Source of the DNA: Armatimonadetes bacterium Uphvl-Ar2
GTDB lineage: Bacteria; Armatimonadota; Fimbriimonadia; Fimbriimonadales; Fimbriimonadaceae
Assembly: GCA_002162095.1 (NCBI GenBank)
Contig: CP021424.1
Span: forward strand, 186,001-250,000
Reading direction: 5' to 3'
Length of the DNA: 64,000 bases
Shown: positions 43,846-61,227 of the stretch, in pieces
Layout of the letters: each line of letters opens with the position of its first letter
Position numbering within the stretch: position 1 is the stretch's first letter
The notes under the pieces: model-generated
What the model saw: the letters and a program-made list of their open reading frames with translations, nothing else
Database searches by the model: none
What the model was told of the DNA's origin: nothing
Translations under genes and position numbers: made by a program

Positions 43846-43851
43846 GGCGGC

Positions 43852-44463: not shown

Positions 44464-44544
44464 TCTAAGAATGTACTCTCTGCAACGATTTCCCCTGAAG
44501 TCCGGCCGTCCAAGGTCCGATGATTTTTACGGGGAGTCACATAG

Positions 44545-45927
44545 GTGGACGTTTCACAAGTTCTATTCGCGGTCGGCGGAGCGACCGTTGGCGCCAGTCT
44601 CACGGCCGTAATTGCCTTCAAACTTGGGCAAAGTCGGTGGCAACGCCTGGCCCATCCCTTTGAGCGAGCCCACCTGGCCAACCCTGATGAGCTTTCGGCC
44701 ACGCCGCAGGCATTCTTTGATCGCTGGCAGGCCGTGATGGCCGAGCTGAGCAATCAGACGCAGAAGTTCAGCACCCTTTCGTTTAAGGACTCGATCCCGC
44801 CAGGACAGAGCCTCATCAGCCTGCGATTGGCGCACGCTTCCGAGCGGATCCGAGTGCAAATGGCCCGCATTTCAAACCACGAGGCCTTTATTAACGACCA
44901 CGCGGTGGAAGTGCAAGGGCTCTCGCAATCCCTGCAAGAAGTGGCGCAGCGACTGAGCGCATCGGCCGATCTGGCCACGATTCTCGGGGAAGAAGCCTCG
45001 GTAGCGTCTCAGGAGGAACTGGAGCGAGGCGGACGCTTGGCGCAATTGGCCAGCGAGCACCACGAGCAGTTCCACCGCATCGTTTCGGAGTTGAACGAGA
45101 AAGTCCAGGGTTGCCCAGAGCAAACAGGCAAGCTCGACGACTTTGTCGGATTTCTCGATAAGTTTACCTACGATGACGAACTGGCCAACCTGCTGAACGA
45201 AGTCAAGCAGCATCTGATGGAGCTCACGCGCATCATCGGCGAGCAAGAGCTTGTGGTGACCAAAAACGAGACGATGCTGGGCAAAGTGCGCAAGATTGCG
45301 CGTCAGTGCAGGCTCCTCAGCTTCAACGCCGCAATTGAGAGCTCACGCAACGGCGCCAATGGCTTGGCCTTCTCCGTGGTTGCCAATGAGATTCGCGAAC
45401 TGGCCGAAGCCACCGAGATTGCCACGAACGAGATGGAATCCCTCTCCGCCCTGCTCCGCAGCGGATTTGAATCCATGATCCGGCAGAGCAAGGAGGTGGT
45501 GGGGTCGTTGGCGAGCATCATGCTCGTCGCCGACGAAAATGTCCAGCGGGTCCACGATTTCTTGGCGCAAAGCCAAGAAATGCGGGCATTCATCCTGGCC
45601 GGCCAGGAGCAACTGGCGACGACTGGCAAAGCCATGCTGAAAATCTCGGACGAGACAGACGCCTTTGCGGACCAAACGGTGCGGGATGCTTCGCTCACGG
45701 CCCGGCTTGTGGCCAAGGCCGACGAGATGGCCGCGCAACTCAACGAACTGCGACAAGACATCCCGGCGATTTTTGACAAGATTCAGGCTTCCGACCGGCT
45801 GATCCAGGATATCCGCGCGGCGGATGCGGAACTGCAAACCACGCTCAATGAAGCGAAGTTTGAGCGCCGCTCGGCCCGCCGCAATCAGGAAGATCGCGCG
45901 AAGCAACGCGCCCAGCGCGCCGCCTAG
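44545..45927 (+). CDS. Chemoreceptor-like (methyl-accepting) signalling protein
   Basis: 460 aa, GTG start with GGGGAG upstream. One N-terminal membrane helix (about 5-25) leads straight into long coiled coils. The signalling-domain hairpin lies around residues 250-295 (RKIARQCRLLSFNAAIESS, then AFSVVANEIRELAEA), with a tip changed from the usual IEAARAGE. No periplasmic sensor domain and no recognisable HAMP are present. It may sense cytoplasmic or membrane state, or serve a non-motility function. No che genes are adjacent. Its stop overlaps the first gene of the phage-like cluster by 4 nt. Confidence 0.75.
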   Translation: MDVSQVLFAVGGATVGASLTAVIAFKLGQSRWQRLAHPFERAHLANPDELSATPQAFFDRWQAVMAELSNQTQKFSTLSFKDSIPPGQSLISLRLAHASERIRVQMARISNHEAFINDHAVEVQGLSQSLQEVAQRLSASADLATILGEEASVASQEELERGGRLAQLASEHHEQFHRIVSELNEKVQGCPEQTGKLDDFVGFLDKFTYDDELANLLNEVKQHLMELTRIIGEQELVVTKNETMLGKVRKIARQCRLLSFNAAIESSRNGANGLAFSVVANEIRELAEATEIATNEMESLSALLRSGFESMIRQSKEVVGSLASIMLVADENVQRVHDFLAQSQEMRAFILAGQEQLATTGKAMLKISDETDAFADQTVRDASLTARLVAKADEMAAQLNELRQDIPAIFDKIQASDRLIQDIRAADAELQTTLNEAKFERRSARRNQEDRAKQRAQRAA

Positions 45928-48900
45928 CTCCACTCGCGGCCATTGTCGGACTCGTAGCTCCGAAGCACGCCCTCTTGCACCACCCACAGGTGTAGGCGGC
46001 GTTCTCCGTTTTGTCCGCGCGGGCCTTCGGCGACGGCCAGGCCAACCGTATCAACCGGGCCAATGGACGGAAGTGACGTGGGGCCGAAAAGTATCTCGCC
46101 CCTCCGGTCGGTGATGTGGCCCACAACGCTACCCGTCGCCTCCCCTTCGATCCAATACACAAATCGGAGGCCATCGGGGCTGATCCACGCCGCCGGAAAC
46201 TGGGCATCGGTGCCGGAACTGATGATTTGACCCTGCGGGTTTTCGTTGGGATTCATGGTTGCAAAGTGAATCTGCCCGACCTGGCTCCACCAGAGGCCGA
46301 GCGGGGCATCGAGCTTAGTGGCGAGCCAGCGTACGGCCGCTGAGTGGGCGTCTTCGCCCGTGTCCCATTCGGCTAACGGTTGCGTGCGGCGGTCGGCGAT
46401 GCCGAGCCAGAGCGTGCCCTCCCGGGCAAAGGCGTGCGCCCAGCGGCCGTCGGGGTGGAGATCGGCGGCCACGATGGTGCCGGGCAGTTCTTTGAGCCCC
46501 GTGAGGCCGAAGGCGCCATTCCAAGGGCGCATCCGAGCTTGGTCCGCGTTGCCGATTCGCCAGCGGTATTGCGCGGGCTCGTTGTGGTCCAGCGGCATAC
46601 GATGCTCTCGCACGTACCACCCCGGAACCCCGGGCGCATGGGGGGCGAGCACGTCTTGGCCGTCGGGGTTGTGCAGCGAGAACGGCTGGTTCGCCACGTA
46701 GATGCGGGGTTCCACCGCGCCCACCATCACGCCTTGCTCGTAGGGGCCGGTCGGGTTTCCGTCTGCATCGCGTGCTCGCACGGGCCAGAGCGCGAGTGGA
46801 GGCAACTCAGAGGCGGTGTTCACCAGGGCCCAGGCGAGTTCGTTGGCGCCGGAGTTGGCCCAAGGAAACGCCAGGCTATTGCGCTCCACTTGCCCTCTCG
46901 CTTGGCCCTCGTAATCGTCATAGAGTTCGCCACACTCGGCATCTAGATTTTCCTCCGAGTGCACGCCCTCGGCCAGCACGCGCCGCGTGGCCAAGGCGTC
47001 AAGAACGCTGCTTGTGAACCCCGCGCCATTCACCGTCGGCGGGTTTTGCCAGCCTTGGTCGTACCAATCCCACAGCCCATGCCCCACTCCTGGCCCGAGC
47101 GGCCAGAACCACGCCCCCGAGTGCCCGGTGAAGTTGAACCACGTGGGGGCCTCGGCGGCGCGGTGGGCGATGGGATAGGCGATAACAATGGGGCCAGGCG
47201 GGTCGGTGGGCGTGATCTCGAAGACCAAGTGCGACATACGCCGCCCACTGATGAGGGGGAAGGCGATCGCCGCTTCGGGGTCGGCCATAAGGGGAATGGA
47301 GCGACCTGCCGGGCGCAGATCGACGCCCTGATCGTTCGTGATGCCCGCGCCGTGATCGAGTCCCCAAGTTCCGGCATCGATGGCATCGGTGCCCTTGAGC
47401 AGCCGGAAACAGCCCGGCTCAACGGGGTCGCCCTCGTTCCACCAAACCGGTTCGGTCATTTCGGGGCTCAGGCGCCCTAGACGGACCGAGTCGATACCCG
47501 CTCCCGACCAATCCACCTCCACATCCTGGGCGGTGGCGGGGGCCATAAAAGGCGGCGAGGTGAGGTTGGCCCACTCGAGATTCACCCGAACGGGCTCCGG
47601 ACCAGCCGGAGTGACTTCCACCCCCAGCGGGGTGAGGGCAAAAGTTCCGCCCTCGGCCGACCATCGCTCACTGCCTGCCAGCGAGAACGCCACCGGTACG
47701 CCCATCGGGGCGCGCCGCATTTGCCACCGGGAGGCCCCCACCCACCGCTTCCCGCCCAGGTAGCCATCCGTAAAAGGGGTGAAGGCCGAAGCCATGAGCG
47801 GGCACGTAGTGAGCGAGTTGCGTGTCCTCGTCTGCTCACTCGGGAGCAGGGCCGGGTGCATAAGATGCTGCGCCCGCACCGGCTCCCAGTACAGCCGGGG
47901 ATCGGTGGGCGAGTTTTCCACAGGCCACGGGGAAAAGTGGTGGAAAACGCTCCAGTGAGGGTGAATCCATGTGGAAAAGTAGCGCACCAAGGGGTCGGCA
48001 TGCCTCCAGGCGGGCTCCATCTCGGGGTTCTCTGCCACCCTATCCACACGAATCGGAAACACCACTGACTCCCCCGCGTAGCTCCCCGCCACGTAGGCCG
48101 GGTCAAAGGTGCAGTCGCTCTCCGGGTTGGTGGCCAGCACATCCACCCGGGCCGCCACGCAGGGGGCCAAGGGTTCCGGGTCAAAGATCTCCCGCTCCAG
48201 AGCGTGGGGGTTGGTTCGCAGCACGCTTAGCCGCACCCCCTGCCGCGCATGGGTGATGTCGGTCTGGATCGTGCGGATGAGGTTGGGGTTTTGCGTATTC
48301 AGTTGGTGCGGCCCCTCGGCGCGGTCACTGCTTCGCTCCAGCGTGACCTGCGGGAACCCCGCCCGCTGCACCAACAGGGCAAAGTCGGGGTTCAGGCGAT
48401 GGATTGACCGGGGTAGTGCGGGCACCAATTGCACCCGGCCCCGGGTGGACCTTGCCGCCAGCCTCGCCGGGCCGCTCATGGTGCCGGGTACGCAGGTGCG
48501 CTCGGCTTCGGCCTCGATTTGCATCCGAAGAAGATCCCCCCAGGAGCGGGTCGCAATGACAATGCCTCCCGCATCCCCTTCGGGCGTCTCGAAACCTGGC
48601 AGCCGCACGGGCAAATCCCGCCAAGCCCCATCCGTGTCAAATCGCCAACCCCCCGAGACCAATTGATCCAGAGCCAAAGTCCAGGCGTACTCCCCGGGGC
48701 CGGTGTAGCCACTGCCGCCGTTCCCTCCCGAGATGATGGGCGGCAAACCCACCAGGGGGATGTAGCCCGGGCCGCACCCGGTACTGAGTTCATCCAGCCC
48801 GGGCAGGGTGAGCCATGGCTCATCATTGGCTACCAGTTCGAGACTCTCCACGGCCAGCCGGAACTGGCCCGTGTTCTCTCGGGCATACAGCCGCACTCCG

Positions 48901-49199
48901 TGCAGTACCAGACTCAAACTCACCGATGTCCGGACGCCCGCGCCGCCGATCACATGCCCACCGATGGGAGCATGCGGACCCTCGTAGCGGGCCTGCCACT
49001 GCCCTCCCCCGGCGGTGCCGCTGGCCACACTGAGGGCAAATCCGGGGGCAATGTTCTGCACGCTGATGACGCTCTCGGTGCGCAGCTGGGCGTCGTGTTG
49101 CCAGTTCAGCGGCCCGGTGCCCGCGGCGGCCACATCGGCGGTGCTTGCCGCCCGGAATTCCAGCCGATCCCAGGCGGCGAGGCGTCCGTTCACCGGCAT
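45924..49199 (-). CDS. Large tail-tip / receptor-binding candidate
   Basis: 1091 aa, the last and largest gene of the cluster. The N-terminal 200 aa are beta-rich and Gly-rich, the middle contains many Trp-Pro-containing loops (for example FNFTGHSGAWFWPLGPG), and the last 230 aa carry regularly spaced strands with DLHPDGRWAHAF, ISPDGLRFVYWI and EGVLRSYESD that resemble a beta-propeller. No enzymatic motif was seen. Position after the hub suggests the tail-tip protein that contacts cells. It is 4 bp after the SGNH gene. Confidence 0.55.
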   Translation of the reverse strand: MPVNGRLAAWDRLEFRAASTADVAAAGTGPLNWQHDAQLRTESVISVQNIAPGFALSVASGTAGGGQWQARYEGPHAPIGGHVIGGAGVRTSVSLSLVLHGVRLYARENTGQFRLAVESLELVANDEPWLTLPGLDELSTGCGPGYIPLVGLPPIISGGNGGSGYTGPGEYAWTLALDQLVSGGWRFDTDGAWRDLPVRLPGFETPEGDAGGIVIATRSWGDLLRMQIEAEAERTCVPGTMSGPARLAARSTRGRVQLVPALPRSIHRLNPDFALLVQRAGFPQVTLERSSDRAEGPHQLNTQNPNLIRTIQTDITHARQGVRLSVLRTNPHALEREIFDPEPLAPCVAARVDVLATNPESDCTFDPAYVAGSYAGESVVFPIRVDRVAENPEMEPAWRHADPLVRYFSTWIHPHWSVFHHFSPWPVENSPTDPRLYWEPVRAQHLMHPALLPSEQTRTRNSLTTCPLMASAFTPFTDGYLGGKRWVGASRWQMRRAPMGVPVAFSLAGSERWSAEGGTFALTPLGVEVTPAGPEPVRVNLEWANLTSPPFMAPATAQDVEVDWSGAGIDSVRLGRLSPEMTEPVWWNEGDPVEPGCFRLLKGTDAIDAGTWGLDHGAGITNDQGVDLRPAGRSIPLMADPEAAIAFPLISGRRMSHLVFEITPTDPPGPIVIAYPIAHRAAEAPTWFNFTGHSGAWFWPLGPGVGHGLWDWYDQGWQNPPTVNGAGFTSSVLDALATRRVLAEGVHSEENLDAECGELYDDYEGQARGQVERNSLAFPWANSGANELAWALVNTASELPPLALWPVRARDADGNPTGPYEQGVMVGAVEPRIYVANQPFSLHNPDGQDVLAPHAPGVPGWYVREHRMPLDHNEPAQYRWRIGNADQARMRPWNGAFGLTGLKELPGTIVAADLHPDGRWAHAFAREGTLWLGIADRRTQPLAEWDTGEDAHSAAVRWLATKLDAPLGLWWSQVGQIHFATMNPNENPQGQIISSGTDAQFPAAWISPDGLRFVYWIEGEATGSVVGHITDRRGEILFGPTSLPSIGPVDTVGLAVAEGPRGQNGERRLHLWVVQEGVLRSYESDNGREWS

Positions 49200-49203
49200 C
49201 GGA

Positions 49204-50148
49204 TTAGAACAAAGCTCCCGGCGCGAAGGTCGAGAGGATGAGCGGCCCGGTAAGCGTCGTGCCCGTGGACATCACCCGCACAATTGGCACCGGCCACGGA
49301 GTGTGGGCGGGCCAGGTGGTGGGGATATCCACGGTTTCGCCGCGCCAGGTCAGCACCCGCACGGCATCACTCGTCACGGACTTCGCCACGGTCGCTCCGA
49401 ACGGGAAATCCTGGTCACTTGCCACCGCCGCCAGCACCGTGGAGCCCATCGCAGCCCCTACCGTCGCGCCACATGGCTCACCCACCAGGGCGCGGGCCAT
49501 CACGCCCGCCAGGCGCGCATAGCCGATGCGGTTGAAGTGGGTGTTGTCGCTGGGCAAGTACCACAGGTTGGACCATCCCACCCGCAGCAGGTCGTGGCTG
49601 CCCGCGTAGACGACCGCGCGGCCCAGGTTTTGCTGGTCGCGCACGGCATCCTTGTGGCCTTGCACCACGGGCTCCATCACGCTATCCACCAGCCAGTTTT
49701 CGCTGGACTTTTGCGGCGGGCGGCTGACGCTGAGCACCCGCAAGGTTTCATCGGCAAAGGCCTCCGAGAACCATGCGTTGAAATCCGCCCGCGCCCCCGC
49801 TCGATCTTGCCCCGGAGGGCTGTTGGTGCCCGCCACTAGGATGATGAGATCGGGGCGGAAAGTGGCCACCCGCGCCCGCACGATGCTGGTGAGCTGGGCC
49901 ACGGTGTTGCCGCCGTAGCCCTCGTGCCGCCAGTCGCGGACGTATTCGCCGAGGTCGTCGGGGTTCGAGGTCTGGCTGCCCACGTACTCCCAGTTGCTGT
50001 AGCCCCAAGCGCTCATGATGCGCTTGAGCGGGCTACGCCAGCCACTGGTGCCGCCAGTACCGGCCGTGAGGCTGTCGCCCATGGCCATGACGCGCACCAC
50101 GCGTCCTTCTTGGAATCGGGTTTTGAGATCGGTTGCGTAAATGTTCAT
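49204..50148 (-). CDS. SGNH/GDSL hydrolase in the tail operon
   Basis: 314 aa. Block I is VMAMGDSLTAGTGG (Ser nucleophile about residue 26), block III is LVAGTNSPP and block V is PSDNTHFNRIGYARLA (Asp and His). The set is complete, so it should be an active esterase or deacetylase. The C-terminal 90 aa form a beta-rich extra domain. Located between the hub and tip genes, it probably trims O-acyl groups from the recipient cell surface or peptidoglycan. Confidence 0.8.
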   Translation of the reverse strand: MNIYATDLKTRFQEGRVVRVMAMGDSLTAGTGGTSGWRSPLKRIMSAWGYSNWEYVGSQTSNPDDLGEYVRDWRHEGYGGNTVAQLTSIVRARVATFRPDLIILVAGTNSPPGQDRAGARADFNAWFSEAFADETLRVLSVSRPPQKSSENWLVDSVMEPVVQGHKDAVRDQQNLGRAVVYAGSHDLLRVGWSNLWYLPSDNTHFNRIGYARLAGVMARALVGEPCGATVGAAMGSTVLAAVASDQDFPFGATVAKSVTSDAVRVLTWRGETVDIPTTWPAHTPWPVPIVRVMSTGTTLTGPLILSTFAPGALF

Positions 50149-50154
50149 GCAGGA

Positions 50155-50292
50155 TTAGTTGAGGGTTTGCGCGCGGCGGGCGGGGCGGCGAGCCAGGTCG
50201 GCTCCCCCTCGGCGCACGGCGCGGCGTTCGGTCGAATGCAGCGAGCGGCGGCGGCCCAAATCGGCCAGCCGCACCAGAGGTCGGTAGTTCAT
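50155..50292 (-). CDS. 45-aa arginine-rich protein
   Basis: Starts with ATG overlapping the hub stop (ATGA) and ends 6 bp before the SGNH gene, so it is translationally coupled. Twelve or more Arg residues in 45 aa, including RRRSLHS, RRAVRRGG and ARRPARRAQ. It has no hydrophobic segment. It may bind nucleic acid or stabilise the tail tip. It is too short to assign; the tight coupling is the main evidence that it is real. Confidence 0.45.
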   Translation of the reverse strand: MNYRPLVRLADLGRRRSLHSTERRAVRRGGADLARRPARRAQTLN

Positions 50293-52418
50293 TGCGAGTT
50301 GATTTCGAGGCTGTCCACGGCCTCGGCGGTATAGAGCGCGTCGCGCCAGTGCGAGTCCGGTTCTTCGCGCGTGAAGGTGCAGCCGAAGGCCCGGATGCGC
50401 CACCAGCCGCGCCCTTCCAGTTCCACTACATCGCCGCGCCACAGGGGCCGGCCATCGAGGGCCAGGAGCAAGTCGCTACGGAATTCGCACATCTGCCGGG
50501 GGCGGCTCATCCGCCGAAACAAGCGGCGAGCGGCTTCTTCCACGGCGCTAGTTGAGCTCAAAACGGGGTCAATCAGGGCGTAACGCCGGCGGGTGCCCAG
50601 CCAATTGAGCGGCCGTTGCTCGGGGGCCAGGGTGGGGTCCTGCGAGGCCGCATCGCGCTGCCCCGCCTGCAAGATCTGCTCCCGCACCGGGTCCCAGCCC
50701 GTGACCTGCACTTCGTTGGCATCCGGCTCGATCCATCGTTGCTGAAACGCGCGATACACCAGCGTCGCCGCCTCCCCCTCCCGGGCTTCGGCCAGGGTGA
50801 GGACGGGGGTAGTGGGCAGATCTTCGGGCGCGAGGGCGAACCACTCCGGTTCTCCTGATGCGCGGGGCCGGAACCCCCACCACCAATCGGCGGCATAAGT
50901 CTCCAGCAGCCGGGCGATCCAGTCGGTGGCGGCGTCGCCCCGCTCGATCAAGGCGGGCCACCGGGCCGCCCCGTCATTCGGCAACCGGAAGTCCGTCGCC
51001 GAAATCACGCGCGGGCCCGTCCAGCCGCTGGCATCCAGCAAGAATTCCAGCGCCTCGGTCAGGGTCAGGCCATCCAGCGCACAAGGTTCGGCGAAGGTCG
51101 CCTCGCTCAGCCGCGCCCAGGCGTCGCTGGCCGCGATTTGCGCCCGGTCCGCCCCGGCAAAAGGTGTGAAGTGCTCCCCGTATTCGGTCTGCACGCCGTC
51201 CAGTGCCAGGGTGGAGCCCAGGTTCACGCGCACCGGCCGGTGCGTTGTGCTCAGTCGCCGCCCGGTTTGGGCTTCCCACGCCGCCGGGTCGCGAGCCGTC
51301 CAATCGAAACTCACCCGGCGCGGGTCGTCGGGCACGCTCAGGGCCGCGCCCAGGGCTTCCCCCGTCACGTCCAGCGTGGCCGCCGGCGTAAAGTCATTTT
51401 GCGCGGCGTAGGCCAGGCTCACCCCCCGCACCATCGGCGTCACCAGCGGGCTAGGCGAAGCGAAGTCCATGCGCAGACGCACCCGGGCCGTCACCCCGTC
51501 GGGGGCCCACGGGTTGCCATCTTCATCGGCCAGCGAAACATCCACGGTGCCCGGCCCCGCCCCAAAGAGGCGGTAGGGCAAGCCATCCCCCGGCCAACCG
51601 TCGTGGTCGAACGGCATCGGCGTTTCGCCAATCTGCGGCGGCTCACTCAGCTGTTGCCGCACCGTGTACGCAAAGCCCGACGTGGCAAACCGCAGGGGCG
51701 CAAGTTGCACCTGCACCGCCCCGTGCGGCACCTGGAACCACACCGGCCCGGCGGGGGTCACCGGCTCCGCATCCCCCTCGCTCAGCACATACGAGAACCC
51801 GTTTCCGGCGAGGGCATAGACCAGAAGCTCCTCGCCCCGCATCGGGATCAGCATCACCTGGAACACCTGCCCGGTCCTCACGTCTCCCGCCCGCGCCCCG
51901 CTGATGCGCCCGTAGTGCACCGCGCGGCCATCCCGCCACACTTCGGTGGTGCCGTCGCTCCAGAACACCAGCCCCGTCCCGGCCGTGAGGTCGCCGGTGG
52001 CGCTCCACCCCACGCGCACGGCTTCGTACCGCTCCCCGCTCCCGTAGGCAAACCACGCCAGCCACAGGCCTTCGTTGGCGCCCATCGGGGCCAGGCTCGT
52101 TCCGCCCCGCGCGGCGTTGGCATCCACGCGCCCCATCCAGGGGCCCCGGCCGCTCTGGTCGTAGCGGTTTTCCCACCCCGGCCCGAGGTCAAAGTCGGCA
52201 GTGCTCCACTTCGCGTTCGCGCCGGTGTCGTCCGTGTACCACGCATCCCGCAAGGGTTGGGGTCGCAGCATCAGGGTGTGCGTGATGGGGTCGAGCCAGG
52301 TGCCCGCGAAGGCAGCCCCGTCCAGTTCCCCCGCCAGTTCCAGGCCGTTGGCGGCCAGGCTCAGTAGGGGGCGGGCGACGCGGGTTTGGGCGTGATCCAG
52401 GGCAATGCTTAGGGCCAA
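50289..52418 (-). CDS. Tail hub / distal tail protein candidate
   Basis: 709 aa. The N-terminal half is beta-sandwich-like, and the C-terminal half (about 420-690) has the gp27/VgrG-like hub pattern: RPVRVNLGSTLALDG, AWARLSEATFAEP, LTLTEALEFLLDASGW, then ERGDAATDWIARLLETYAADW and a closing DVVELEGRGWWRIRAF. Such proteins form the trimeric hub under the tail tube. It overlaps the upstream gene by 10 nt and the 45-aa gene by 4 nt. Likely a fusion of distal-tail and hub functions, since no separate distal-tail gene is present. Confidence 0.6.
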   Translation of the reverse strand: MALSIALDHAQTRVARPLLSLAANGLELAGELDGAAFAGTWLDPITHTLMLRPQPLRDAWYTDDTGANAKWSTADFDLGPGWENRYDQSGRGPWMGRVDANAARGGTSLAPMGANEGLWLAWFAYGSGERYEAVRVGWSATGDLTAGTGLVFWSDGTTEVWRDGRAVHYGRISGARAGDVRTGQVFQVMLIPMRGEELLVYALAGNGFSYVLSEGDAEPVTPAGPVWFQVPHGAVQVQLAPLRFATSGFAYTVRQQLSEPPQIGETPMPFDHDGWPGDGLPYRLFGAGPGTVDVSLADEDGNPWAPDGVTARVRLRMDFASPSPLVTPMVRGVSLAYAAQNDFTPAATLDVTGEALGAALSVPDDPRRVSFDWTARDPAAWEAQTGRRLSTTHRPVRVNLGSTLALDGVQTEYGEHFTPFAGADRAQIAASDAWARLSEATFAEPCALDGLTLTEALEFLLDASGWTGPRVISATDFRLPNDGAARWPALIERGDAATDWIARLLETYAADWWWGFRPRASGEPEWFALAPEDLPTTPVLTLAEAREGEAATLVYRAFQQRWIEPDANEVQVTGWDPVREQILQAGQRDAASQDPTLAPEQRPLNWLGTRRRYALIDPVLSSTSAVEEAARRLFRRMSRPRQMCEFRSDLLLALDGRPLWRGDVVELEGRGWWRIRAFGCTFTREEPDSHWRDALYTAEAVDSLEINSQ

Positions 52419-52930
52419 GTCGCCTCTTGGCGGGCGGCCTGGATCCAGCGCGCGGCCTCTTGCGCCACCAGTTCCCGCAGCGTCGCCGCCACGTTGTCAA
52501 AGGCATCGCGGCCGGTGCGCCGCACGGTGAATGAGGCCATCTCCACCGGGGTGAGGCCGGGCGCATTCGGTCGGCCCATAACGTCTTCTTCCGGGGCTTC
52601 ACTCTGGCCCCAGTGCGCCGCGTCCTCCGGCATCTCCCACTGCTCGGTAGCGGTGGGCACGCGGGGCACCGCCGGGGGCTCGGCGCGCGGCGCGGCAGGC
52701 CGAGGCGCCGGCGTCAAAGGGTCAGGTTCGCCCTGGCGCTCTAGCGCCGGTGTCGTCTCCGGCGTCGGTCTCTCATGGGGTTGCGGCTTGGGGTCCTCGG
52801 CCGGCGGGTCCGGGATGTAGTAGATCCCGGGGTCATCCGTCGGCAGCCATTCGCTTTCGTCCGGCTCGCGGGCCGAGCGCATCGCGGGCTCGTCCGAGTC
52901 CCCCGGCCACCACCACAGGCCCTCACTCAC
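52409..52930 (-). CDS. Short protein in the tape-measure position
   Basis: 173 aa with a GTG start inside GTGAGTGA, overlapping the chaperone stop. A Trp-rich start (GLWWWPGDSDEP) is followed by a Pro/Glu-rich, probably disordered middle (35-100) and an amphipathic helical C-terminus (about 120-170, ending LRELVAQEAARWIQAARQ). A tape measure normally lies here and is many hundreds of residues long. If this is one, the tail would be only about 25 nm by the usual 0.15 nm per residue. Alternatively it is a second chaperone and the true tape measure is absent. Confidence 0.5.
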   Translation of the reverse strand: MSEGLWWWPGDSDEPAMRSAREPDESEWLPTDDPGIYYIPDPPAEDPKPQPHERPTPETTPALERQGEPDPLTPAPRPAAPRAEPPAVPRVPTATEQWEMPEDAAHWGQSEAPEEDVMGRPNAPGLTPVEMASFTVRRTGRDAFDNVAATLRELVAQEAARWIQAARQEATWP

Positions 52931-53225
52931 CGGCCCACGCCTCCCAGGCTGCCGTGAGGCTCGCTCGGCTCACCCGCTCAACCAAGGCATCGAACAACAC
53001 CCCGGCCGAAGCCGCCATATCCAGCGCGGACTCCACCGTAAGCGGCATCGACGCGCACAATTCCGCCAGCAAGAACGCCTCGTAGATCACACGCGGCGAA
53101 AACGGCAATTCCGGCCCCGCCTCGCGCACAAACGCCTCCGCCTCGGCCCGCAAGGCGCGGACCTCATCCACATGGGCGCAAGTGTGAAACTCCCACCGCC
53201 GCCCGCCTAAGGAGAACGCAATCAA
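52923..53225 (-). CDS. Tail assembly chaperone candidate
   Basis: 100 aa from a TTG that overlaps the tail-tube stop (TTGA). The upstream part of the same frame is a shadow of the tail-tube gene. The sequence has an N-terminal strand (IAFSLGGRRWEFHT) and then helices (VRALRAEAEAFVREA, IYEAFLLAELCA), like small tail chaperones that coat the tape measure. Position between tube and tape-measure slot supports this. The call rests mainly on context. Confidence 0.55.
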   Translation of the reverse strand: MIAFSLGGRRWEFHTCAHVDEVRALRAEAEAFVREAGPELPFSPRVIYEAFLLAELCASMPLTVESALDMAASAGVLFDALVERVSRASLTAAWEAWAGE

Positions 53226-54028: not shown

Positions 54029-54459
54029 TCTTCATTCACCTCGTTCAATGGGGGGCGGTGGGCCGTAACTCGGCACCGAAAGTGCACCGTCACGCCCGTG
54101 CGGGATTCCCGCGCATCGCCCCGGCGCGGGTGCAAGTCAATCTGCGGCACGTGCGCCAACACGATGCCCGGCAAGGCCAAGAGCGCCTCGCGGAGAACAT
54201 GCGCGCGGTCCAGTGCCACGGCATCGGCGTTCAAGTCTTCGCGGGGCCACAGCCCGCGGATTGCCCACGCCCAATGGCCAGCATCGGCGGTGGGAGTTTC
54301 CGGGTCGTATTTCACTTCGGTCAGTAGCACTTGCGCCAAAGGGATGGCTCCCTCGGCATCGGCCACCTCGGCGGCCTGGGTGCGGATGCGGATCGGCCCC
54401 CAGGCCGCTTCCACCGCCGCTACGAGCGCCGCCCGGAGGCTGATGTAAGTCGCCATCAT
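54025..54459 (-). CDS. Tail terminator / tail completion candidate
   Basis: 144 aa. An N-terminal helix (ISLRAALVAAVEAAWG) is followed by a small alpha/beta domain with VLLTEVKYDPE and a late strand TGVTVHFRCRVTA. The family pattern of tail terminators is a short N-terminal helix plus a four-strand sheet. The first two codons are ATGATG, overlapping the upstream stop. Role inferred from position between head-closure and tail-tube genes. Confidence 0.5.
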   Translation of the reverse strand: MMATYISLRAALVAAVEAAWGPIRIRTQAAEVADAEGAIPLAQVLLTEVKYDPETPTADAGHWAWAIRGLWPREDLNADAVALDRAHVLREALLALPGIVLAHVPQIDLHPRRGDARESRTGVTVHFRCRVTAHRPPLNEVNEE

Positions 54460-54785
54460 GCGGTTTGCAACTCCACGGTGGCGTGGGCCAGGATCGGCTC
54501 AGCATCGTGCACTACCGGCTCCGACACCACCATCCATTGCTGGTCGCCGTGCTGAATCCAGTCCCCACTGCGGAGGGGAGCCAAATCGGCAATCTCGCCG
54601 CGCAGGATCGCTCGCTGTTCCGTCGTTACTTGCCCGGGTTCCACCGCAGCTTGAGGCTGAAACCCATCCAAATGAGCTGCAAACGAACCCATCAGCACTC
54701 GCTCATGGCCCACCACCAGCGTGCCTTCCAGCACCTCGCCCAGCCGAAACCACTGCACCCAATGCGGCCGCAACGGCAGCGGCAT
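54456..54785 (-). CDS. Head-closure (stopper) protein candidate
   Basis: 109 aa, compact and beta-rich. The segment LRSGDWIQHGDQQWMVVSEP (GD.I.. ..W.V pattern) is characteristic of the head-closure/SPP1 gp16-like fold that plugs the filled capsid. It overlaps neighbours on both sides by 1-4 nt. The call is supported by motif and position. Confidence 0.6.
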   Translation of the reverse strand: MPLPLRPHWVQWFRLGEVLEGTLVVGHERVLMGSFAAHLDGFQPQAAVEPGQVTTEQRAILRGEIADLAPLRSGDWIQHGDQQWMVVSEPVVHDAEPILAHATVELQTA

Positions 54786-55390
54786 CAGACGCGCACCCGC
54801 CGGTACCTCTGCACCGCCGCCTCGCCCCGCTCTTGCAAGAAATCGCTCAGCGTGGCCGCGTCGCCGCGCTTGAGCGTCACCGAACCTTGCCGCACCTCAC
54901 GCCACGCTCCGGGCTGGGCTTGTTCGCTCATCAGCACCCGCGCCGCCGCGCGGTCCAGCACCGCCATCCAGGCGTCCATTGGGATGGTCACGCCATAGCC
55001 GCGCCGGCCTTCCACCTCAATCGGGGCTCGCCCCTGCACGGGGATGCCCCATTGCAGCCAGGTGTAGGGCCGCCCGTGGGCGGGAGCCCCACTGGGTTCC
55101 AGCCAGTAATCCTCGCCCGGCGTCAGCGTCCGCCCCGCCCAGCGCACCGCATCCACGCTCACGTAGCCGCCGTTCAGGTCTTGCCACACCATGCCGGAGG
55201 GCACCAGGGTCTGCACACTGGCGGCGGTCTCCGCCAAAAAGGGGTTCCACCCCGTCTCGCTTTCCCAGCGCTGAACTTCCGCCTCCATGCGGTCGGTCAG
55301 CGAGGGTGACCCCGGGGGTGTTTCCACCCCCAGGGTCTGCAAATAGGCACCGAGTTCGGCCCCGGTCGGCCAATTCGCCTTCCCCGCCAT
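54785..55390 (-). CDS. Head-tail connector (adaptor) candidate
   Basis: 201 aa. It begins WPTGAELGAYLQTLG and includes DRMEAEVQRWESETGWNPF, an amphipathic helix as in gp6/gp15-type adaptor proteins, then a beta domain and a helical C-terminus. It lies 3 bp after the capsid stop and overlaps the stopper gene by one base. The adaptor forms a ring between portal and stopper. Confidence 0.6.
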   Translation of the reverse strand: MAGKANWPTGAELGAYLQTLGVETPPGSPSLTDRMEAEVQRWESETGWNPFLAETAASVQTLVPSGMVWQDLNGGYVSVDAVRWAGRTLTPGEDYWLEPSGAPAHGRPYTWLQWGIPVQGRAPIEVEGRRGYGVTIPMDAWMAVLDRAAARVLMSEQAQPGAWREVRQGSVTLKRGDAATLSDFLQERGEAAVQRYRRVRV

Positions 55391-55393
55391 CCG

Positions 55394-56959
55394 TTAGAGG
55401 CCGGTTACCGTACAGGCCGCCGCATCACGGAAGCTGGCCAAAGCCGCCCGCAGGTGGGCGCGCACCGTCAGCACGTTCTTGGCGAACGTATCCGTGTGCG
55501 ATTCGCTCACCGCCATCGTGATGCCCTGGCGGATGACCAACCCGAAGTACTGCGTATCCATCACCAGCGCCGTGCCGACCGGCAGAGCTTCGTTGAGGGC
55601 AATCGAGACCCCCATCAGGCGCGTCGTCATCTCGTCGCTGGGGTGCCCCATCACGTATTGGCCATCGGTGGTGCGGGCCAGCACCAGCTTCAGGTAGTCG
55701 GCCGGGTTCAGCAGGATCAAGTTGGGCACCGCGCCCCCATTGCCGACGCCGCTGCGGCGAACCTTGTCCATCCCCTTGGCCAGCGCGTCAATGATCGGGT
55801 CGGCGCCCTTGGCCTGGGTTTGGATACCCGGCAGGTTCAGCAAGCCCGTGAGGTTGGGCGCGTTGCCGTCCCCGCTCAAGCACTGCGAATCCAGCACCTG
55901 CCGCAGCATCAGGCTCAGCCGCTGCTCGATGAGGGCGCGCACGCCGGGTTCGTCTTCCAGTTGCTCTTCGGTCACCGGCAGCACCACGCCCAGGCGGCGG
56001 ATCGGCACCGTCACCTCGGCAAAGGTCAGCGTGGCCTCGTCCAGCGCCGCATTCTCACCCTTGGTGCCAGCGGCATTGGTGAACACGCTCTCCCGCATGA
56101 GCTTAAAGGCGTTCTGCTGCGTGGGGATGACCGGGAGAAAGTCCACCAATTGCGGCGGGCGCTGCACGCTGGGCACCAGATAGCCGCTGCGCAGCACTTC
56201 CGGCGGCATGCCCGCAGTTGTGGTCATCGTCGCTTTGGCTTCCAGGGCGCGGCGGGTGTCCACCGCCAGTTCCACCTCCGGCATATGGCGGCTGCCTCGG
56301 TTTTGCCAGGATTCACTGGCGAAGAGGGCGTCGGCCAGCCCCTTTTGCTCCAGCGGCAGGGTGGCGGCAGACGAAACGTTGAGGCGGCCGCTCGGGGCGG
56401 CGATTTGAGGGTTATCCATAGGGAGTTGAGGGGTGCGGGGCGCTTCCTCCCGCTCGTTTTTCACGGCCAGCACCTGGGCTTCCGGGTGGGCCGGCATGGT
56501 CACAATCGAAACTTCCCGGACTTCGAGGGCCCGGATGCGGCGGCGGGCTTGGGGGTCCGGGCTGGGCTCGCTGGCTAGCACGCAGTAGCCAATGCTGAGG
56601 CCCACTTTCTTGCCTCTTTGCAGGCGCTCTTGCACCACGGTTTGGGCTTGCTGCGCGGCGGGCGTGGTGTGGAACCGCATCCGCACAAAGAGACCCTTAG
56701 CGTCTTCCTTGGCCTCCTCGATAGTTGCCACGGGGAGCTCGGACCAGTCGTGGCCCACCGCGCCAAAGCCCTCTTGCGTCAAAGCATCCAAGTTGCGGTA
56801 GGCGCCGGGGAGGATGATGTCCCCCACTCGATCCGGGCCACCGAGGACGGAAGCGTAGCCTTCCAGTACGCCCTCTAGCGATGGCGTGTCAAGGGGCTGG
56901 TCCGGCAAATCGGGGATAAAACTGAGTTCAACGCGCGAGTTATCCCCACGTTTATCCAA
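55394..56959 (-). CDS. Fused HK97-type prohead protease and major capsid protein
   Basis: 521 aa from a TTG at 56959 that overlaps the portal stop; the ORF runs open further but would overlap portal by 160 bp. Residues 1-165 are a U35-like prohead protease: catalytic His in VGHDWSELP, Ser in KVGLSIGY and Glu in LEVREVSIV, followed by TMPAHPEA. Residues about 200-521 are an HK97-fold capsid protein: delta-like helical part, then FLPVIPTQQN, AEVTVPIRRLGVVLPVTEEQL, LSLMLRQVLDSQCLSGDG and the C-terminal FGLVIRQGITMAVSE. The fusion replaces the usual two genes. Confidence 0.82.
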   Translation of the reverse strand: MDKRGDNSRVELSFIPDLPDQPLDTPSLEGVLEGYASVLGGPDRVGDIILPGAYRNLDALTQEGFGAVGHDWSELPVATIEEAKEDAKGLFVRMRFHTTPAAQQAQTVVQERLQRGKKVGLSIGYCVLASEPSPDPQARRRIRALEVREVSIVTMPAHPEAQVLAVKNEREEAPRTPQLPMDNPQIAAPSGRLNVSSAATLPLEQKGLADALFASESWQNRGSRHMPEVELAVDTRRALEAKATMTTTAGMPPEVLRSGYLVPSVQRPPQLVDFLPVIPTQQNAFKLMRESVFTNAAGTKGENAALDEATLTFAEVTVPIRRLGVVLPVTEEQLEDEPGVRALIEQRLSLMLRQVLDSQCLSGDGNAPNLTGLLNLPGIQTQAKGADPIIDALAKGMDKVRRSGVGNGGAVPNLILLNPADYLKLVLARTTDGQYVMGHPSDEMTTRLMGVSIALNEALPVGTALVMDTQYFGLVIRQGITMAVSESHTDTFAKNVLTVRAHLRAALASFRDAAACTVTGL

Positions 56960-56970
56960 AGTTATCCACA
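56940..56970 (+). repeat. Three tandem DnaA-box-like 9-mers
   Basis: TTATCCCCA, TTATCCAAA and TTATCCACA occur at 56940, 56952 and 56962. The third is the exact consensus DnaA box and the others differ by one or two bases. They lie in the portal/protease junction and are also coding. They may be chance, but three in 31 bp is unusual. Confidence 0.5.
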
Positions 56971-58136
56971 CCCCGATTGAGAACCGCTCGGCCCTCGTCC
57001 GCCGTCCACAGCCCGACTTGAACGTTCTCTCGCACCCGCGCGTGGCGGTCGCTTTCGTCCTCCTGCAAGGCCCGCACGTCGCGCAGGTCAAACTCGGCCT
57101 GGGCGGGCGGGTCAAACTCCGGCATGAGCTGATCGGTGATCTGCTCCGCCACCAGCCGCCACTTCGGAATCAAGAACGACTCCACCGCCGCCTCCCGCGC
57201 TTCGCGGAAGTTGCTAAATGTGGCGTGCTCCATGCCCGAACCCAGCCCCAGCACCAGCGCCGAGACGCCCAACAGGGCCGTGATTCGCTCTTCAGGCAGG
57301 CGCACCAGCCGGTCCAGGCTCATCTGCTCGGGGCTGAACCCCAGCGGAGTCACATCCAGCGGGATGGTGGGAAACACCACTCCACCCGCTTGGTCACCCG
57401 CCGTCGCCTGGGTCAGCAAGCGCTTGGTTTCGTGCACAAAGTGGTCGGTGATCGCCCCGGCGTCGCCCGCGTCTCGCACCGTCACCAGGAGGCTGGGGGC
57501 CGGCGCGCGCATCAGTGCCCGGTGGTATTGCGCCACCTCGTTATCGGTGCGAATCTCACACTCAATCGCCCGCAAGGGCGACTGCCCCCGCAGGGGATTC
57601 TCCGGGTCAATCCCGTCCATAAAGTGCAGCACGTCGCCGGGGGTCATCCACACTTCCCCGCCGCTGGTGGCCACCCGGTACCCGGCCAGGCGGTGGCTGG
57701 TGCCGGGCATCGCCACCGGCGTCACACTCGCCGAAGGCCACCAATCTAAGCCGATCACCTGGCCCGTCTCGTCGCGGACCTTGTGCAGATAGGCGTTGCC
57801 ATCCAGCACCAGGTCCATCACCAGGGCCTGCCGGATCTGTCGCCCCGAGACCTTGCTCGGTTCGCCCAGCCGCGCGTGCGGCCGCTGCAGCAGCAAAGCC
57901 GCCGGGTGGTGGTCGTCCCATTGTCCATCCCGGCGCACCCGCAAGGGGGGCTCGGTGAACGTGCGCATGGCCCACTGGACCACCGCCATCACGATCGAAT
58001 TCGTCTCAGCATCGCGCCGAGAGCGTGGGGGCAAAGGCAGCACCGCCCCGCCGGCAATACGCGCCGGGCTCGGGTTTGGTGGGCTCTCCGCCCCGGCCCC
58101 GAAGGGCCATTTCCATTTCTTCATTTCTTGGTTCAT
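56952..58136 (-). CDS. HK97-type portal protein
   Basis: 394 aa. Typical segments: ALVMDLVLDGNAYLHKVRDE, WWPSASVTPV, DVLHFMDGIDPENPLRGQSPLRA and PEERITALLGVSALVLGLGSGMEHATFSNFREAREA, the classic portal core, ending with a helical crown. It forms the dodecameric ring through which DNA enters. The start is clear of terL by 10 bp, and the stop overlaps the TTG start of the protease-capsid gene. Confidence 0.88.
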   Translation of the reverse strand: MNQEMKKWKWPFGAGAESPPNPSPARIAGGAVLPLPPRSRRDAETNSIVMAVVQWAMRTFTEPPLRVRRDGQWDDHHPAALLLQRPHARLGEPSKVSGRQIRQALVMDLVLDGNAYLHKVRDETGQVIGLDWWPSASVTPVAMPGTSHRLAGYRVATSGGEVWMTPGDVLHFMDGIDPENPLRGQSPLRAIECEIRTDNEVAQYHRALMRAPAPSLLVTVRDAGDAGAITDHFVHETKRLLTQATAGDQAGGVVFPTIPLDVTPLGFSPEQMSLDRLVRLPEERITALLGVSALVLGLGSGMEHATFSNFREAREAAVESFLIPKWRLVAEQITDQLMPEFDPPAQAEFDLRDVRALQEDESDRHARVRENVQVGLWTADEGRAVLNRGVDNFG

Positions 58137-58146
58137 CAGGTGCCCG

Positions 58147-59319
58147 TCAAGTCACCCGGGCGGGCCGCTTGAGGGCCTGGGCGGCCAGGGCCAGCGCGCA
58201 TACGCAGTCATCGTGGCCGTGGGGCGGGCCCTCCATCACCACCCGGCCGCTGGCGGACGTGCGGTAGGCAAAGCTCTCCAGTTCGGCGGTTTGCACGGGC
58301 ACATCCATCAGGCGCAACCCTTGCCGCTCAAAGCGCAGCGCCAGCCGCTCCATCATCGTCGCCTTGCTCTCGGCGGTGAACACCACTGGGCGCACTCGCA
58401 CGCCCTGCTCTTTCAGCAGTTCGCACACCGGGTCGCCCAGGCCCGTGCTGTCCACGTGGGCTACGGCATCGTAGGCGTGGGCCAGTTCGGCCAGGCGAAG
58501 GGCCGTCACCGTCCAGGTTTGTCCGCGCCAACGCCGCCAGGCCACCTGCCGCCCGTTCGGGTCCAGCACCGTGGCCACCGTCCAGTCGTGGTGGCGGCCC
58601 AGGTCCACGCCCATCACGTAGCTTTGGGTGGGGTCCGGCGGGTCGTCGCCGGTTCGGCCTGCATCCACCGCTTCGCGCACCCCGCCGAACACGGCCCCCT
58701 CCTCATCGGCGAACTCGGCCAGATACTCCTGCCGAAACGCCCGCTCCGAGAGGTCGCCCCGCGCCGCTTCAATCTCCGCCGCCGGAAGGTGGGGGTTCTC
58801 GGCGCTAGGGGCGTGAAACGAAGCCCACCCTTCCCCCTCTTGCGAGAACAGAGCAAAGAAGTCCCCCCGCCCCCGTGGCGTGCTGAGGAAAGCCGCCTGC
58901 CCTGCGTCGTCGGTCAGCGTCGGGCGGATGGTTTCGGCCCACACCCGGGCGAGATCACGCACGATGGCGGCCTCGTCCACCAGGGCCAGGGCCAGTCTCC
59001 GGCCCCGCCCCGCATCCGGGTCGTCGAAGCTAAAGAACGAGATCGAACCGCCCGTAATCAGGTCGATCCGGCGCTCATCTTCGCTCATCCGCCGCGCCAC
59101 CGGGGCCAGGGTTTGCCGCAGGGTCCGCCACGGCTCGCTCAAAAAGCGATACGTCGGCCCAAACCACCCCACCGGCCGCCCCGCCAGGGCCGCTTGCACG
59201 CTCAGGTGTTCCCCCAGCGTCGTCTTGCCCCAGCGCCGCCCGCACGCCAGTACGCGGAACCGGGCGTGGCTATCCAACACCCGCCGCTGCCCGGCATGGG
59301 GGCGCGGCAACGAAAGCAC
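58147..59319 (-). CDS. terL: Large terminase subunit
   Basis: 390 aa from the GTG at 59319; a longer start at 59355 would overlap the preceding gene. ATPase: Walker A GRRWGKTT (27-34), Walker B LALALVDEAA, motif III FLSTPRG. Nuclease: Asp in VMGVDLGRHHDWT, then HVDSTGLGD and the final Asp pair in GHDDCVCALALA. All catalytic positions appear intact. It pumps and cuts DNA during packaging. Intactness suggests the packaging machine still works. Confidence 0.9.
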   Translation of the reverse strand: MLSLPRPHAGQRRVLDSHARFRVLACGRRWGKTTLGEHLSVQAALAGRPVGWFGPTYRFLSEPWRTLRQTLAPVARRMSEDERRIDLITGGSISFFSFDDPDAGRGRRLALALVDEAAIVRDLARVWAETIRPTLTDDAGQAAFLSTPRGRGDFFALFSQEGEGWASFHAPSAENPHLPAAEIEAARGDLSERAFRQEYLAEFADEEGAVFGGVREAVDAGRTGDDPPDPTQSYVMGVDLGRHHDWTVATVLDPNGRQVAWRRWRGQTWTVTALRLAELAHAYDAVAHVDSTGLGDPVCELLKEQGVRVRPVVFTAESKATMMERLALRFERQGLRLMDVPVQTAELESFAYRTSASGRVVMEGPPHGHDDCVCALALAAQALKRPARVT

Positions 59320-59329
59320 AATCCGGTCA

Positions 59330-59560
59330 TCACTCGTCCCGATACACCACCTCAATCGTGGTGGGCGTCGGGGCCTCGGTGGGGGCGGGTTCGAGGCGGC
59401 TCACCAGTTCCTTCAGTGCCGTCGGGTTGCCCGCCAGGGCACTCTCAATGAAGGTGCGAATCACCTCCCGGGCCAGCCGATAGTCGTCGGCTCGAAGGGC
59501 TTCGCGCAGCAAGTCCACATCCGCTCCCGCCGGCAGCGTCCGCGTGCGGCGTCGCGCCAT
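59330..59560 (-). CDS. Minimal small-terminase candidate
   Basis: 76 aa just upstream of terL, the usual terS site. A basic N-terminus (ARRRTRTL), two short helices (VDLLREALRADDYRLAREVI and NPTALKELVSRLE) and a polar tail are visible. The helix-turn-helix DNA-binding domain of phage small terminases is not. If it is TerS, it keeps only an oligomerisation part, which would suit non-specific headful packaging. It could instead be an unrelated small packaging cofactor. Confidence 0.5.
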   Translation of the reverse strand: MARRRTRTLPAGADVDLLREALRADDYRLAREVIRTFIESALAGNPTALKELVSRLEPAPTEAPTPTTIEVVYRDE

Positions 59561-59564
59561 GGGC

Positions 59565-59744
59565 TCAGGTCAGGGGTTCCAGGCCCAGTGCGGCCAGCAC
59601 TCCGGCCATCGCCCCGGCCACCCAGCGGCGCCCGGCCAGGCTCCAATCGAAGGCGCCCGGGGTGCGGGTCCAGGCGTGCAGGTCAACGACGATGGCGGAC
59701 ACCAGCCCGCCCAGGGCACCGGCCCCGATCTTGTTCATGTTCAT
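59565..59744 (-). CDS. 59-aa membrane protein
   Basis: Starts NMNKIGAGALGGLVSAIV and has a second hydrophobic stretch, WVAGAMAGVLAALGL, giving two short membrane helices separated by a polar turn. Two in-frame ATGs are possible (59744, 59738). It lies 4 bp before the small-terminase-like gene and 13 bp after the holin-like gene. Two-helix topology and position in the lysis block suggest a second holin or holin-like partner. Confidence 0.5.
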   Translation of the reverse strand: MNMNKIGAGALGGLVSAIVVDLHAWTRTPGAFDWSLAGRRWVAGAMAGVLAALGLEPLT

Positions 59745-59757
59745 ATTGTGTTGGTGG

Positions 59758-59946
59758 CTATTCCAGCCGGTCGCTCAGCCGCTCGACGGCCAATTTCAGG
59801 CCCTCCAGCGTGGCGCGGAATTCGGTCAGCAGATGGATGAGGGCACTTCGGTCGGCACTCCAGGCCTTCACGACCTGCCACATGAGGAAGCCCGCCATGA
59901 TGGCCGTGGGGCCGTGCACCGAGAGCGCCGCTAAGAGGGCGTCCAC
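59758..59946 (-). CDS. Holin-like protein
   Basis: 62 aa from a GTG at 59946 that overlaps the CHAP stop; a start at 59988 would add 14 out-of-place residues. One membrane helix (about 8-25, HGPTAIMAGFLMWQVV) is followed by an amphipathic coiled-coil-like helix. This is the layout of BhlA/UviB-type holins. Together with the CHAP hydrolase it would form a lysis pair. Confidence 0.5.
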   Translation of the reverse strand: MDALLAALSVHGPTAIMAGFLMWQVVKAWSADRSALIHLLTEFRATLEGLKLAVERLSDRLE

Positions 59947-60485
59947 TTGGCCTCGGTGAGCTTGATCACCTTCAGTTGGGGCGTCCACAAGCGTTGCCGA
60001 CGGTAGACGCCATCGCCTTCGCGGCTCCCCGCATCGTTGGTGTTGCCCTCAATCGTCTCGGCCAGCCAGCCCCGCGCCGTGCGGCGCATGCGCACAATGA
60101 AGCCGATATGGCCCCGCCATGCCGCCCGGTCGCACCAGGCAAAGAGGTCTCCCCGCCGGGCTTGAGCCGGGTCGGCCGTGACTCGAAAGCGGCTGCCGTG
60201 CACCCAGTGGCACACCGAGGCGGAGTTGCGCGGCAGTTGCCCGCGCTCCGCCCCCGCTTGCAAGAGCTGATAGGTGACGAAGGCCGCGCACCAGGGTGCG
60301 CCAGGCTGGAGCCCGCAAGCGGCCAAGTACTGGTCGATGTGGGGGCCTGAGTTCCGACCGGATTCCCGCACCCGCAAAGTGTCAGCGGCATGGGCGGCCA
60401 ATAGTAAAGCCCGCTCGGGAATCATAAAGGTGGCCCATTCCGAGGCCGAATAGCCCGGCACGGGCGCTCGTTCCGCATTTTGCAT
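59931..60485 (-). CDS. CHAP-type peptidoglycan hydrolase (endolysin)
   Basis: 184 aa. CHAP/NlpC-type catalytic Cys in GAPWCAAFVTYQ (about 66), His in RGHIGFIVRM and a polar third residue in IEGNTNDAGSREGDG. No signal peptide, so export would depend on the holin-like protein. It is the first gene of the cluster; a promoter must lie in the 205-bp gap to the divergent CAP-domain gene. It may lyse producers or open the cell wall during entry. Confidence 0.85.
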   Translation of the reverse strand: MQNAERAPVPGYSASEWATFMIPERALLLAAHAADTLRVRESGRNSGPHIDQYLAACGLQPGAPWCAAFVTYQLLQAGAERGQLPRNSASVCHWVHGSRFRVTADPAQARRGDLFAWCDRAAWRGHIGFIVRMRRTARGWLAETIEGNTNDAGSREGDGVYRRQRLWTPQLKVIKLTEAKWTPS

Positions 60486-61134: not shown

Positions 61135-61204
61135 CGCCACCTTTCCCCACCCCTTTTTCGTCATGGCCCTCGCTTTCCTGCCCCGATTTCCGTTATATTA
61201 GTAT

Positions 61205-61220: not shown

Positions 61221-61227
61221 TATCGCA

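Follow-up and report, generated by a model that had tools for sequence, protein, structure and literature searches.

Gene transfer agents (GTAs) share six features: particle proteins derived from caudoviricetes; an endogenised genome, often at multiple loci; mostly vertical inheritance with host co-diversification; packaging of mostly random host DNA; a genome of their own that is not fully packageable; and delivery of the DNA to other cells (PMC9662315). Characterised examples are few, from alphaproteobacteria, a spirochete, a sulfate reducer and a methanogen (PMC9662315), and no report of GTAs or domesticated capsids in Armatimonadota was found in the open-access literature. Here, the DNA under study is a window of 64,000 nucleotides, positions 186001-250000 of a closed 2.63-Mb Fimbriimonadaceae (Armatimonadota) genome labelled G000. 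It holds a 14.6-kb minus-strand cluster of particle genes at 45924-60485 (chromosome 231.9-246.5 kb). This cluster is probably a domesticated siphovirus-like particle locus, most likely a GTA, vertically inherited in the clade of the window's genus (g1, three genomes) and its sister genus in Fimbriimonadaceae (g30, eight genomes).

Two described agents invite comparison. With RcGTA of Rhodobacter capsulatus (Rhodogtaviriformidae) the cluster shares a compact size of ~14-15 kb, the head-packaging-tail order, vertical inheritance and the lack of replication genes. A likeness to the Rhodobacter type had been drawn in the first-pass annotation of this DNA; it holds for layout and logic, and it fails at the tape measure, which is nearly absent here. 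The window cluster further differs from RcGTA in its protease-capsid fusion, SGNH tip and adjacent CHAP lysin and sigma factor. It belongs to another phylum, probably has an independent phage origin, and its lineage is split into two loci in g30. With the Brachyspira agent BhGTA/VSH-1 (Brachygtaviriformidae) the lineage shares the placement of structural genes and the large-terminase gene terL at separate chromosomal places, and co-diversification with the host (PMC9662315). The proteins of BhGTA are mostly unlike known phages, whereas the window set, so far known from its genes, is clearly HK97-type.

Gene content and chromosomal setting

The cluster encodes a small-terminase-like (TerS-like) protein, large terminase (TerL), portal, protease-capsid fusion, head-tail and tail proteins, hub, SGNH esterase and CHAP endolysin, with tight overlaps between neighbouring genes, as first described. 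The terminase, portal, protease, capsid and adaptor family matches are significant, which places the particle proteins, as far as genes can tell, among those derived from caudoviricetes. A complete head-packaging-tail-lysis set had been proposed. Its genes, single strand and coordinates were borne out; the tail set is not full-length, with 173 amino acids (aa) at the tape-measure position. The catalytic residues reported as intact were read directly in each protein: GRRWGKT, ALVDE, D251, D302 and HDDC in TerL; GHD/GLSIG in the protease; GDS, GTN and DNTH in the SGNH enzyme; and WC, GHIG and EGN in the CHAP enzyme. Host genes flank the cluster on the left, as noted earlier, and equally on the right. 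The GC content of 66-70% is somewhat above the 60-65% of the host surroundings, so that the earlier description as host-like needs correcting. The conserved unit extends to 62032, since a plus-strand cassette (60691-62032) of a CAP-domain protein, p118 and a sigma factor travels with the cluster.

The genome holds four tyrosine recombinases, two Xer-sized (1.645 Mb and 147.6 kb) and two phage-type (485.7 and 508.8 kb). The nearest, 84 kb from the cluster, is Xer-sized, and no integrase lies within that distance (tyrosine recombinases; serine recombinases were not searched by profile). Gene calls spanning 45 kb on the left and 24 kb on the right contain host-type genes only, with no recognisable phage replication genes, and no att-like direct repeat was found flanking the cluster. 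These three lines agree with the absences first reported, and an integrase beyond the right edge with a matching att pair, which would have pointed to a phage, was looked for and not seen. The integrase, regulator, replication genes and att sites expected of a temperate phage were not found here.

Genes for tRNA are classical phage attachment sites. A tRNA-Gln gene lies just beyond the window edge (64038-64111), and in the g1 genome G001 it abuts the conserved unit with its 3' end pointing toward it. It was considered as an att site and dropped, the tRNA 3' end having no repeat on the cluster's left side; it may mark where a phage originally entered. Both this tRNA and the lack of integrase, repressor and replication genes nearby would suit a defective (cryptic) prophage, one in decay after losing the genes for integration and replication. 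The inheritance of the cluster speaks to this alternative.

Inheritance within the genus

All three g1 genomes carry the cluster, at one locus. Records of the hub gene come from Chthonomonas sp. UBA2785 (G001; hub 96% identical) and the metagenome-assembled genomes ACE_ARM5 (G002), ACE_ARM8 (G059) and ACE_ARM7 (G182), the last two in g30. In G002 the cluster occupies the orthologous locus, in the order aroC-pstB-p267-HAD-cluster as in the window. Neighbourhood host proteins are 28-75% identical between the two and cluster proteins 34-62%, and the sigma-p118-CAP cassette stays beside the cluster in inverted orientation. In G001, where the middle of the unit is unassembled, its two ends lie on separate contigs and are flanked as in the window. 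Patchy presence among close strains, named in advance as a sign of a mobile element, is not seen in g1; in g30, two of eight genomes lack the cluster, consistent with loss.

Between G000 and G001 the right flank is 93% identical over 15 kb and the cluster genes 87-98%. Synonymous divergence (dS) is mostly 0.11-0.25 in the cluster and 0.02-0.79 in the right-flank host genes. The ratio of nonsynonymous to synonymous divergence (dN/dS) is lowest in the capsid, at 0.02; it is 0.04-0.11 in the hub, adaptor and tube candidate and reaches 0.15-0.25 in the tip, SGNH and smallest proteins. This indicates purifying selection, with values mostly between 0.02 and 0.25. Across 3529 codons, 697 substitutions have produced 0 stops, where ~16 are expected when the same substitutions are placed at random. 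A decaying prophage would hardly be kept in this state in all three species of g1 while diverging at the pace of the host.

Three host genes left of the cluster (43042-45927), including one for a chemotaxis protein, show a dS of 1.3-1.8 against G001 and are far more diverged than everything around them, as if replaced. Set against a cluster dS of 0.2, they raised the possibility of recent transfer of the cluster between G000 and G001. This was rejected, as the right flank is equally similar and the left-flank genes are the outlier.

Split loci in the sister genus

TerL of the window type occurs in six of the eight g30 genomes, one full-length copy each. In G059, which is closed, and in G182 the gene set is split into two loci, ~1.2 Mb or more apart even round the circle. 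The first comprises CHAP, two small proteins, TerS, TerL and portal and adjoins an adenylosuccinate-lyase-like gene; the second comprises protease, capsid, adaptor, small proteins, tube candidate, hub and tip and adjoins pgk. Each has the same host neighbours in both genomes. For 16 genes compared between them, dS is 0.35-1.14, within the range of the neighbours, and dN/dS is mostly 0.03-0.15, with a maximum of 0.28 in the mini tape measure. The two parts face each other in G180 and G181 and lie on different contigs in G184, while in G183 the CHAP gene is ~9 kb from TerL.

With its loci ~1.2 Mb or more apart, the element cannot excise as one phage, and in g30 its own genome would not be packageable whole. 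Since a phage genome in separate pieces is not functional, the persistence of intact pieces argues for selection at the level of the cell. Genes that stay intact after splitting are also hard to reconcile with a decaying prophage, which is accordingly an improbable account of the locus.

Trees of TerL, the major capsid protein and the hub recover g1 and g30, as does host PheT, and G183 is deepest in g30 in the TerL and PheT trees alike. The placement of G184, weakly supported, is the only discordance. Endogenisation thus takes the form of one fixed locus in g1 and two in G059 and G182, and synteny, dS and trees agree on mostly vertical inheritance with host co-diversification.

These comparisons bear on a further alternative, an intact temperate phage or satellite that keeps its genes for integration and replication at another place or borrows them. 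The family does contain related prophages with full tape measures, and G180 carries one of them, separate and with a 581-aa tape measure, together with the domesticated set. The fixed orthologous position, host-like dS, tree congruence and split over ~1.2 Mb or more speak against such an element, and no excision, circular forms or variable insertion sites were seen in the genomes compared. Satellites that build capsids themselves, such as capsid-forming phage-inducible chromosomal islands (cf-PICIs), encode a terminase, portal and capsid together with an integrase and lack tail genes; here no integrase is near, and a hub, tube candidate and tip are present. An active phage or satellite is therefore highly improbable.

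Taken together, synteny in relatives, gene trees set against the host tree and dN/dS strongly support domestication, that is, upkeep for particle production rather than phage reproduction, as the first-pass annotation had proposed. A GTA is the likeliest form that this would take.

Tail, hub and small terminase

Siphoprophages of Fimbriimonadaceae (for example in G007, G036, G075 and G165) have a homologous hub, and several share capsid, portal and gene order with the cluster. The free Synechococcus phage Sc-Yong805-2 (L347, OR075997.1) shares hub and layout and carries antirepressor and integrase genes; its true host may be the cyanobacterium or a companion organism in the culture. These relatives differ from the cluster in having tape measures of at least 484 aa: the gene between chaperone and hub encodes 484-581 aa in seven related prophage loci and has ~593 codons at this position in Sc-Yong805-2. 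In the g1/g30 clade it encodes 73-173 aa (73-78 aa in g30, 173 aa in the window), and in G002 only a 44-aa open reading frame (ORF) was called there. Tape-measure length sets tail length in siphophages, so that a tail of ~10-25 nm would be expected.

The hub model matches hubs of extracellular contractile injection systems, VgrG, Mu gp44 and T4 gp27 in Foldseek. Its mean predicted confidence (pLDDT) is low, at 52, and the match remains useful for identifying the protein. For the tube candidate (pLDDT 57), weak matches to tail tube and neck proteins, including those of RcGTA, are only suggestive. A segment of the predicted hub (50289-52418) has a galectin-like fold in this low-confidence model and is possibly sugar-binding. 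A scan of IMG/VR with the hub returned one contig, equal in length to a contig of G080.

The TerS-like protein of g1 (p76) lacks the N-terminal helix-turn-helix that g30 TerS (phrog_1482, 6e-25) has. Its tentative assignment as TerS draws on weak similarity and its place before TerL. In RcGTA, TerS (gp1) appears to lack a DNA-binding domain and binds DNA non-specifically, the proposed cause of random packaging (PMC6854486). By the same proposal, the missing helix-turn-helix would let packaging in g1 begin without sequence preference, and random packaging of host DNA is thereby suggested.

The proposed GTA cycle would proceed as follows. The adjacent sigma factor or a host regulator would switch on particle production in some cells. 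TerS-like protein, TerL and portal would fill HK97-type heads with chromosomal DNA by the headful, starting without sequence preference. A very short tail with the hub and SGNH-bearing tip would be added to the head, the holin candidates and CHAP endolysin would lyse the producer, and the hub/SGNH tip would deliver the DNA to relatives. If so, this Armatimonadota case, in which the TerS-like protein has no DNA-reading domain and the tail is almost gone, would show that the domestication of particles carrying DNA has happened repeatedly and convergently.

Several observations weigh against this account. The terminase-portal part of G001 falls in the assembly gap. Neither cluster part is present in G031 and G049 of g30, so the particle system is dispensable. 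The portal was not found beside TerL in G180, G181 and G183, nor a hub in G183, and some g30 species may be losing particle function. In G180 (L138), matches to the tube, tip and protease genes fall in two frames, apparent frameshifts that reflect either assembly or sequencing error or the decay that a cryptic prophage would show. The likeness of p76 to the g30 TerS family is weak and C-terminal only (hhalign P 5e-4), and g30 TerS keeps its helix-turn-helix. Finally, so small a tail might be unable to deliver DNA.

The near loss of the tail also suits a domesticated capsid with another job, such as DNA release or storage, or a particle that kills competitors. Terminase and portal motifs that are intact and under selection point instead to DNA packaging, and the retention of hub, SGNH and tip points to contact with a target cell, which makes another job unlikely for the window cluster.

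A phylum-wide Mu-type head gene set

TerL matches, present in 73 of 101 relatives, seemed at first to represent the window cluster; most proved to be a Mu-type TerL-portal pair. This TerL adjoins a Mu-type portal (PF06074) between host genes such as rpmB, rpsT and that of a peptidyl-prolyl isomerase. PF06074 is found in 144 of 291 Armatimonadota genomes, mostly as one copy, and in 0 of 14 control genomes; some weaker, longer matches are ordinary prophages. Several deep families have a single cluster of TerS, TerL, portal, protease (phrog_976), cement (phrog_1731), gpT capsid (PF10124, 3.5e-77), connectors and often an endolysin. No recognisable tail genes appear in the Mu-type clusters before host genes resume, and no search was made for Mu-type tail genes elsewhere in those genomes. 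As this phylum-wide set shows no tail genes nearby, delivery may not be its purpose, a point that adds to the case for another job.

In Fimbriimonadales the gpT capsid lies away from the TerL-portal pair, in a module of protease, cement, capsid, small proteins and connector. The distance is 19 kb in G011, 0.75 Mb in G008 and 1.0 Mb in G043 and G019. Protease, cement and capsid occur in all 19 fetched Fimbriimonadales loci and in L046, and both connectors in all but two loci, of family f2. Searches with PF05065 and PF04586 missed the capsid of the Mu-type genomes; a gpT alignment found it, in 125 of the 291 genomes. The loci examined were clusters L272-L276, L279, L285, L287 and L290, capsid modules L304-L323 and L046, and TerL-portal pairs L039-L054. 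Distances correlate with those of host PheT for capsid (r 0.85) and TerL (r 0.77), and between capsid and TerL (0.78; 20-26 genomes); within the family r is 0.57-0.65, and all p are at most 0.002.

Like a cf-PICI, the Mu-type set has its own terminase, portal and capsid without tail genes. It differs in that no integrase was seen beside it, that it mostly occurs once per genome, that its genes are scattered between housekeeping genes and that it has diverged along with the host.

Neither the Mu portal nor gpT was found in any of the 11 g1/g30 genomes. In genus g10 the TerL-portal pair is flanked by the isomerase gene and the gene next to it; G002 (L076, G002:C197 6672-8710) has these two genes but not the pair, an empty ancestral site. 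The simplest reading is that the old Mu-type system was lost and replaced by the window cluster in the g1/g30 clade. Loss and replacement would be a single event on the tree, so that the mutual exclusion is not statistically independent evidence. Elsewhere, compact HK97-type clusters without an obvious tape-measure gene occur as L091 (G029) and L092/L093 (G030, G048; 1.5-Mb genomes). Their genera, g28 and g29, also lack the Mu-type set, and these clusters are possibly further domestications.

About as likely as not is the broader proposal that Armatimonadota ancestrally had a domesticated, tailless Mu-type DNA-packaging capsid, and that the window clade lost it and gained an independently domesticated HK97-type particle with a nearly vanished tail. 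Taken by itself, the window cluster represents a new lineage within a known kind of system, with unusual traits; together with the head-only Mu-type set it may, with about equal chances either way, amount to a new class. If the broader proposal is true, near-tailless particles serving the cell would be an old trait in this bacterial phylum and would form a new class of viriform. Through the phylum-wide set, the age and purpose of such systems become testable. Cultured Chthonomonas calidirosea T49 carries a version of its capsid module (G143, L316: gpT capsid/cement module, head protease phrog_53 1e-52, portal-like phrog_3753 6e-19 and endolysin).

Individual genes and neighbouring features

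Cluster proteins were compared with families in Pfam and PHROG, with homologues by phmmer and with structures by Foldseek (Table 1).

Table 1. Genes of the cluster and of the adjoining cassette, in window positions.
Feature	Position	Strand	Evidence
Tail-tip/receptor-binding candidate, 1091 aa, last gene of cluster	45924..49199	-	phmmer: prophage L095 1e-29, L092 1e-5
SGNH/GDSL esterase	49204..50148	-	PF13472 4e-10; motifs intact; 50% identity in G002
Small conserved protein, 45 aa	50155..50292	-	53% identity in G002; 47-aa counterpart in G180/G181 (g30)
Baseplate/tail hub, 709 aa	50289..52418	-	Foldseek best E 3e-10; homologues in g1, g30, prophages
Tape-measure-position protein, 173 aa, very short	52409..52930	-	between hub and chaperone
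Tail-assembly-chaperone-position protein, 82 aa	52923..53171	-	gene order; 93% identity in G001
Tail-tube candidate, 268 aa	53222..54028	-	conserved g1/g30; weak Foldseek matches, pLDDT 57
Tail-terminator-position protein, 144 aa	54025..54459	-	gene order; homologues in G001, G002
Head-tail-stopper-position protein, 109 aa	54456..54785	-	gene order; homologue in G001
Head-tail adaptor (connector)	54785..55390	-	phrog_442 1e-7; homologues in all related clusters
Fused S78 prohead protease and HK97 major capsid protein	55394..57115	-	PF04586 1e-18, PF05065 8e-27
Portal protein	56952..58136	-	PF04860 1.5e-38
Large terminase TerL	58147..59355	-	PF17289/PF03237, phrog_2 9e-39; ATPase and nuclease motifs intact
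Small-terminase-like protein p76, 76 aa	59330..59560	-	weak C-terminal similarity to g30 TerS family
Small membrane-type protein, 59 aa (holin candidate)	59565..59744	-	conserved in G002
Small membrane-type protein, 62 aa (holin candidate)	59758..59946	-	50% identity in G002 and G059
CHAP endolysin	59931..60485	-	phrog_9589 endolysin 1e-12; just under Pfam cut-off; motifs intact
CAP-domain secreted protein	60691..61134	+	PF00188 1e-16; adjoins cluster in G001 and G002 too
p118, 118 aa	61228..61584	+	40% identity in G002; dN/dS 0.05 vs G001
Sigma-70-family factor	61574..62032	+	PF08281 6e-6, phrog_1740 1e-6; adjoins cluster in G001/G002

The tip candidate, also present in G001 and G002, has no match in Pfam or PHROG. 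The SGNH/GDSL esterase is a probable surface-polymer deacylase of the tail tip, and the sigma-70-family factor is a candidate regulator of the cluster. Protease and capsid, one ORF in the window, are encoded separately in g30 and in prophage L095; the start of the window ORF probably lies downstream of 56952 rather than at 57115.

Beyond the sigma gene, ~2 kb of low-GC (50%) DNA at 62033-64019 carries two N-methyl pilin-like genes. Relative to G001, this segment is an insertion in G000 between the sigma gene and tRNA-Gln.

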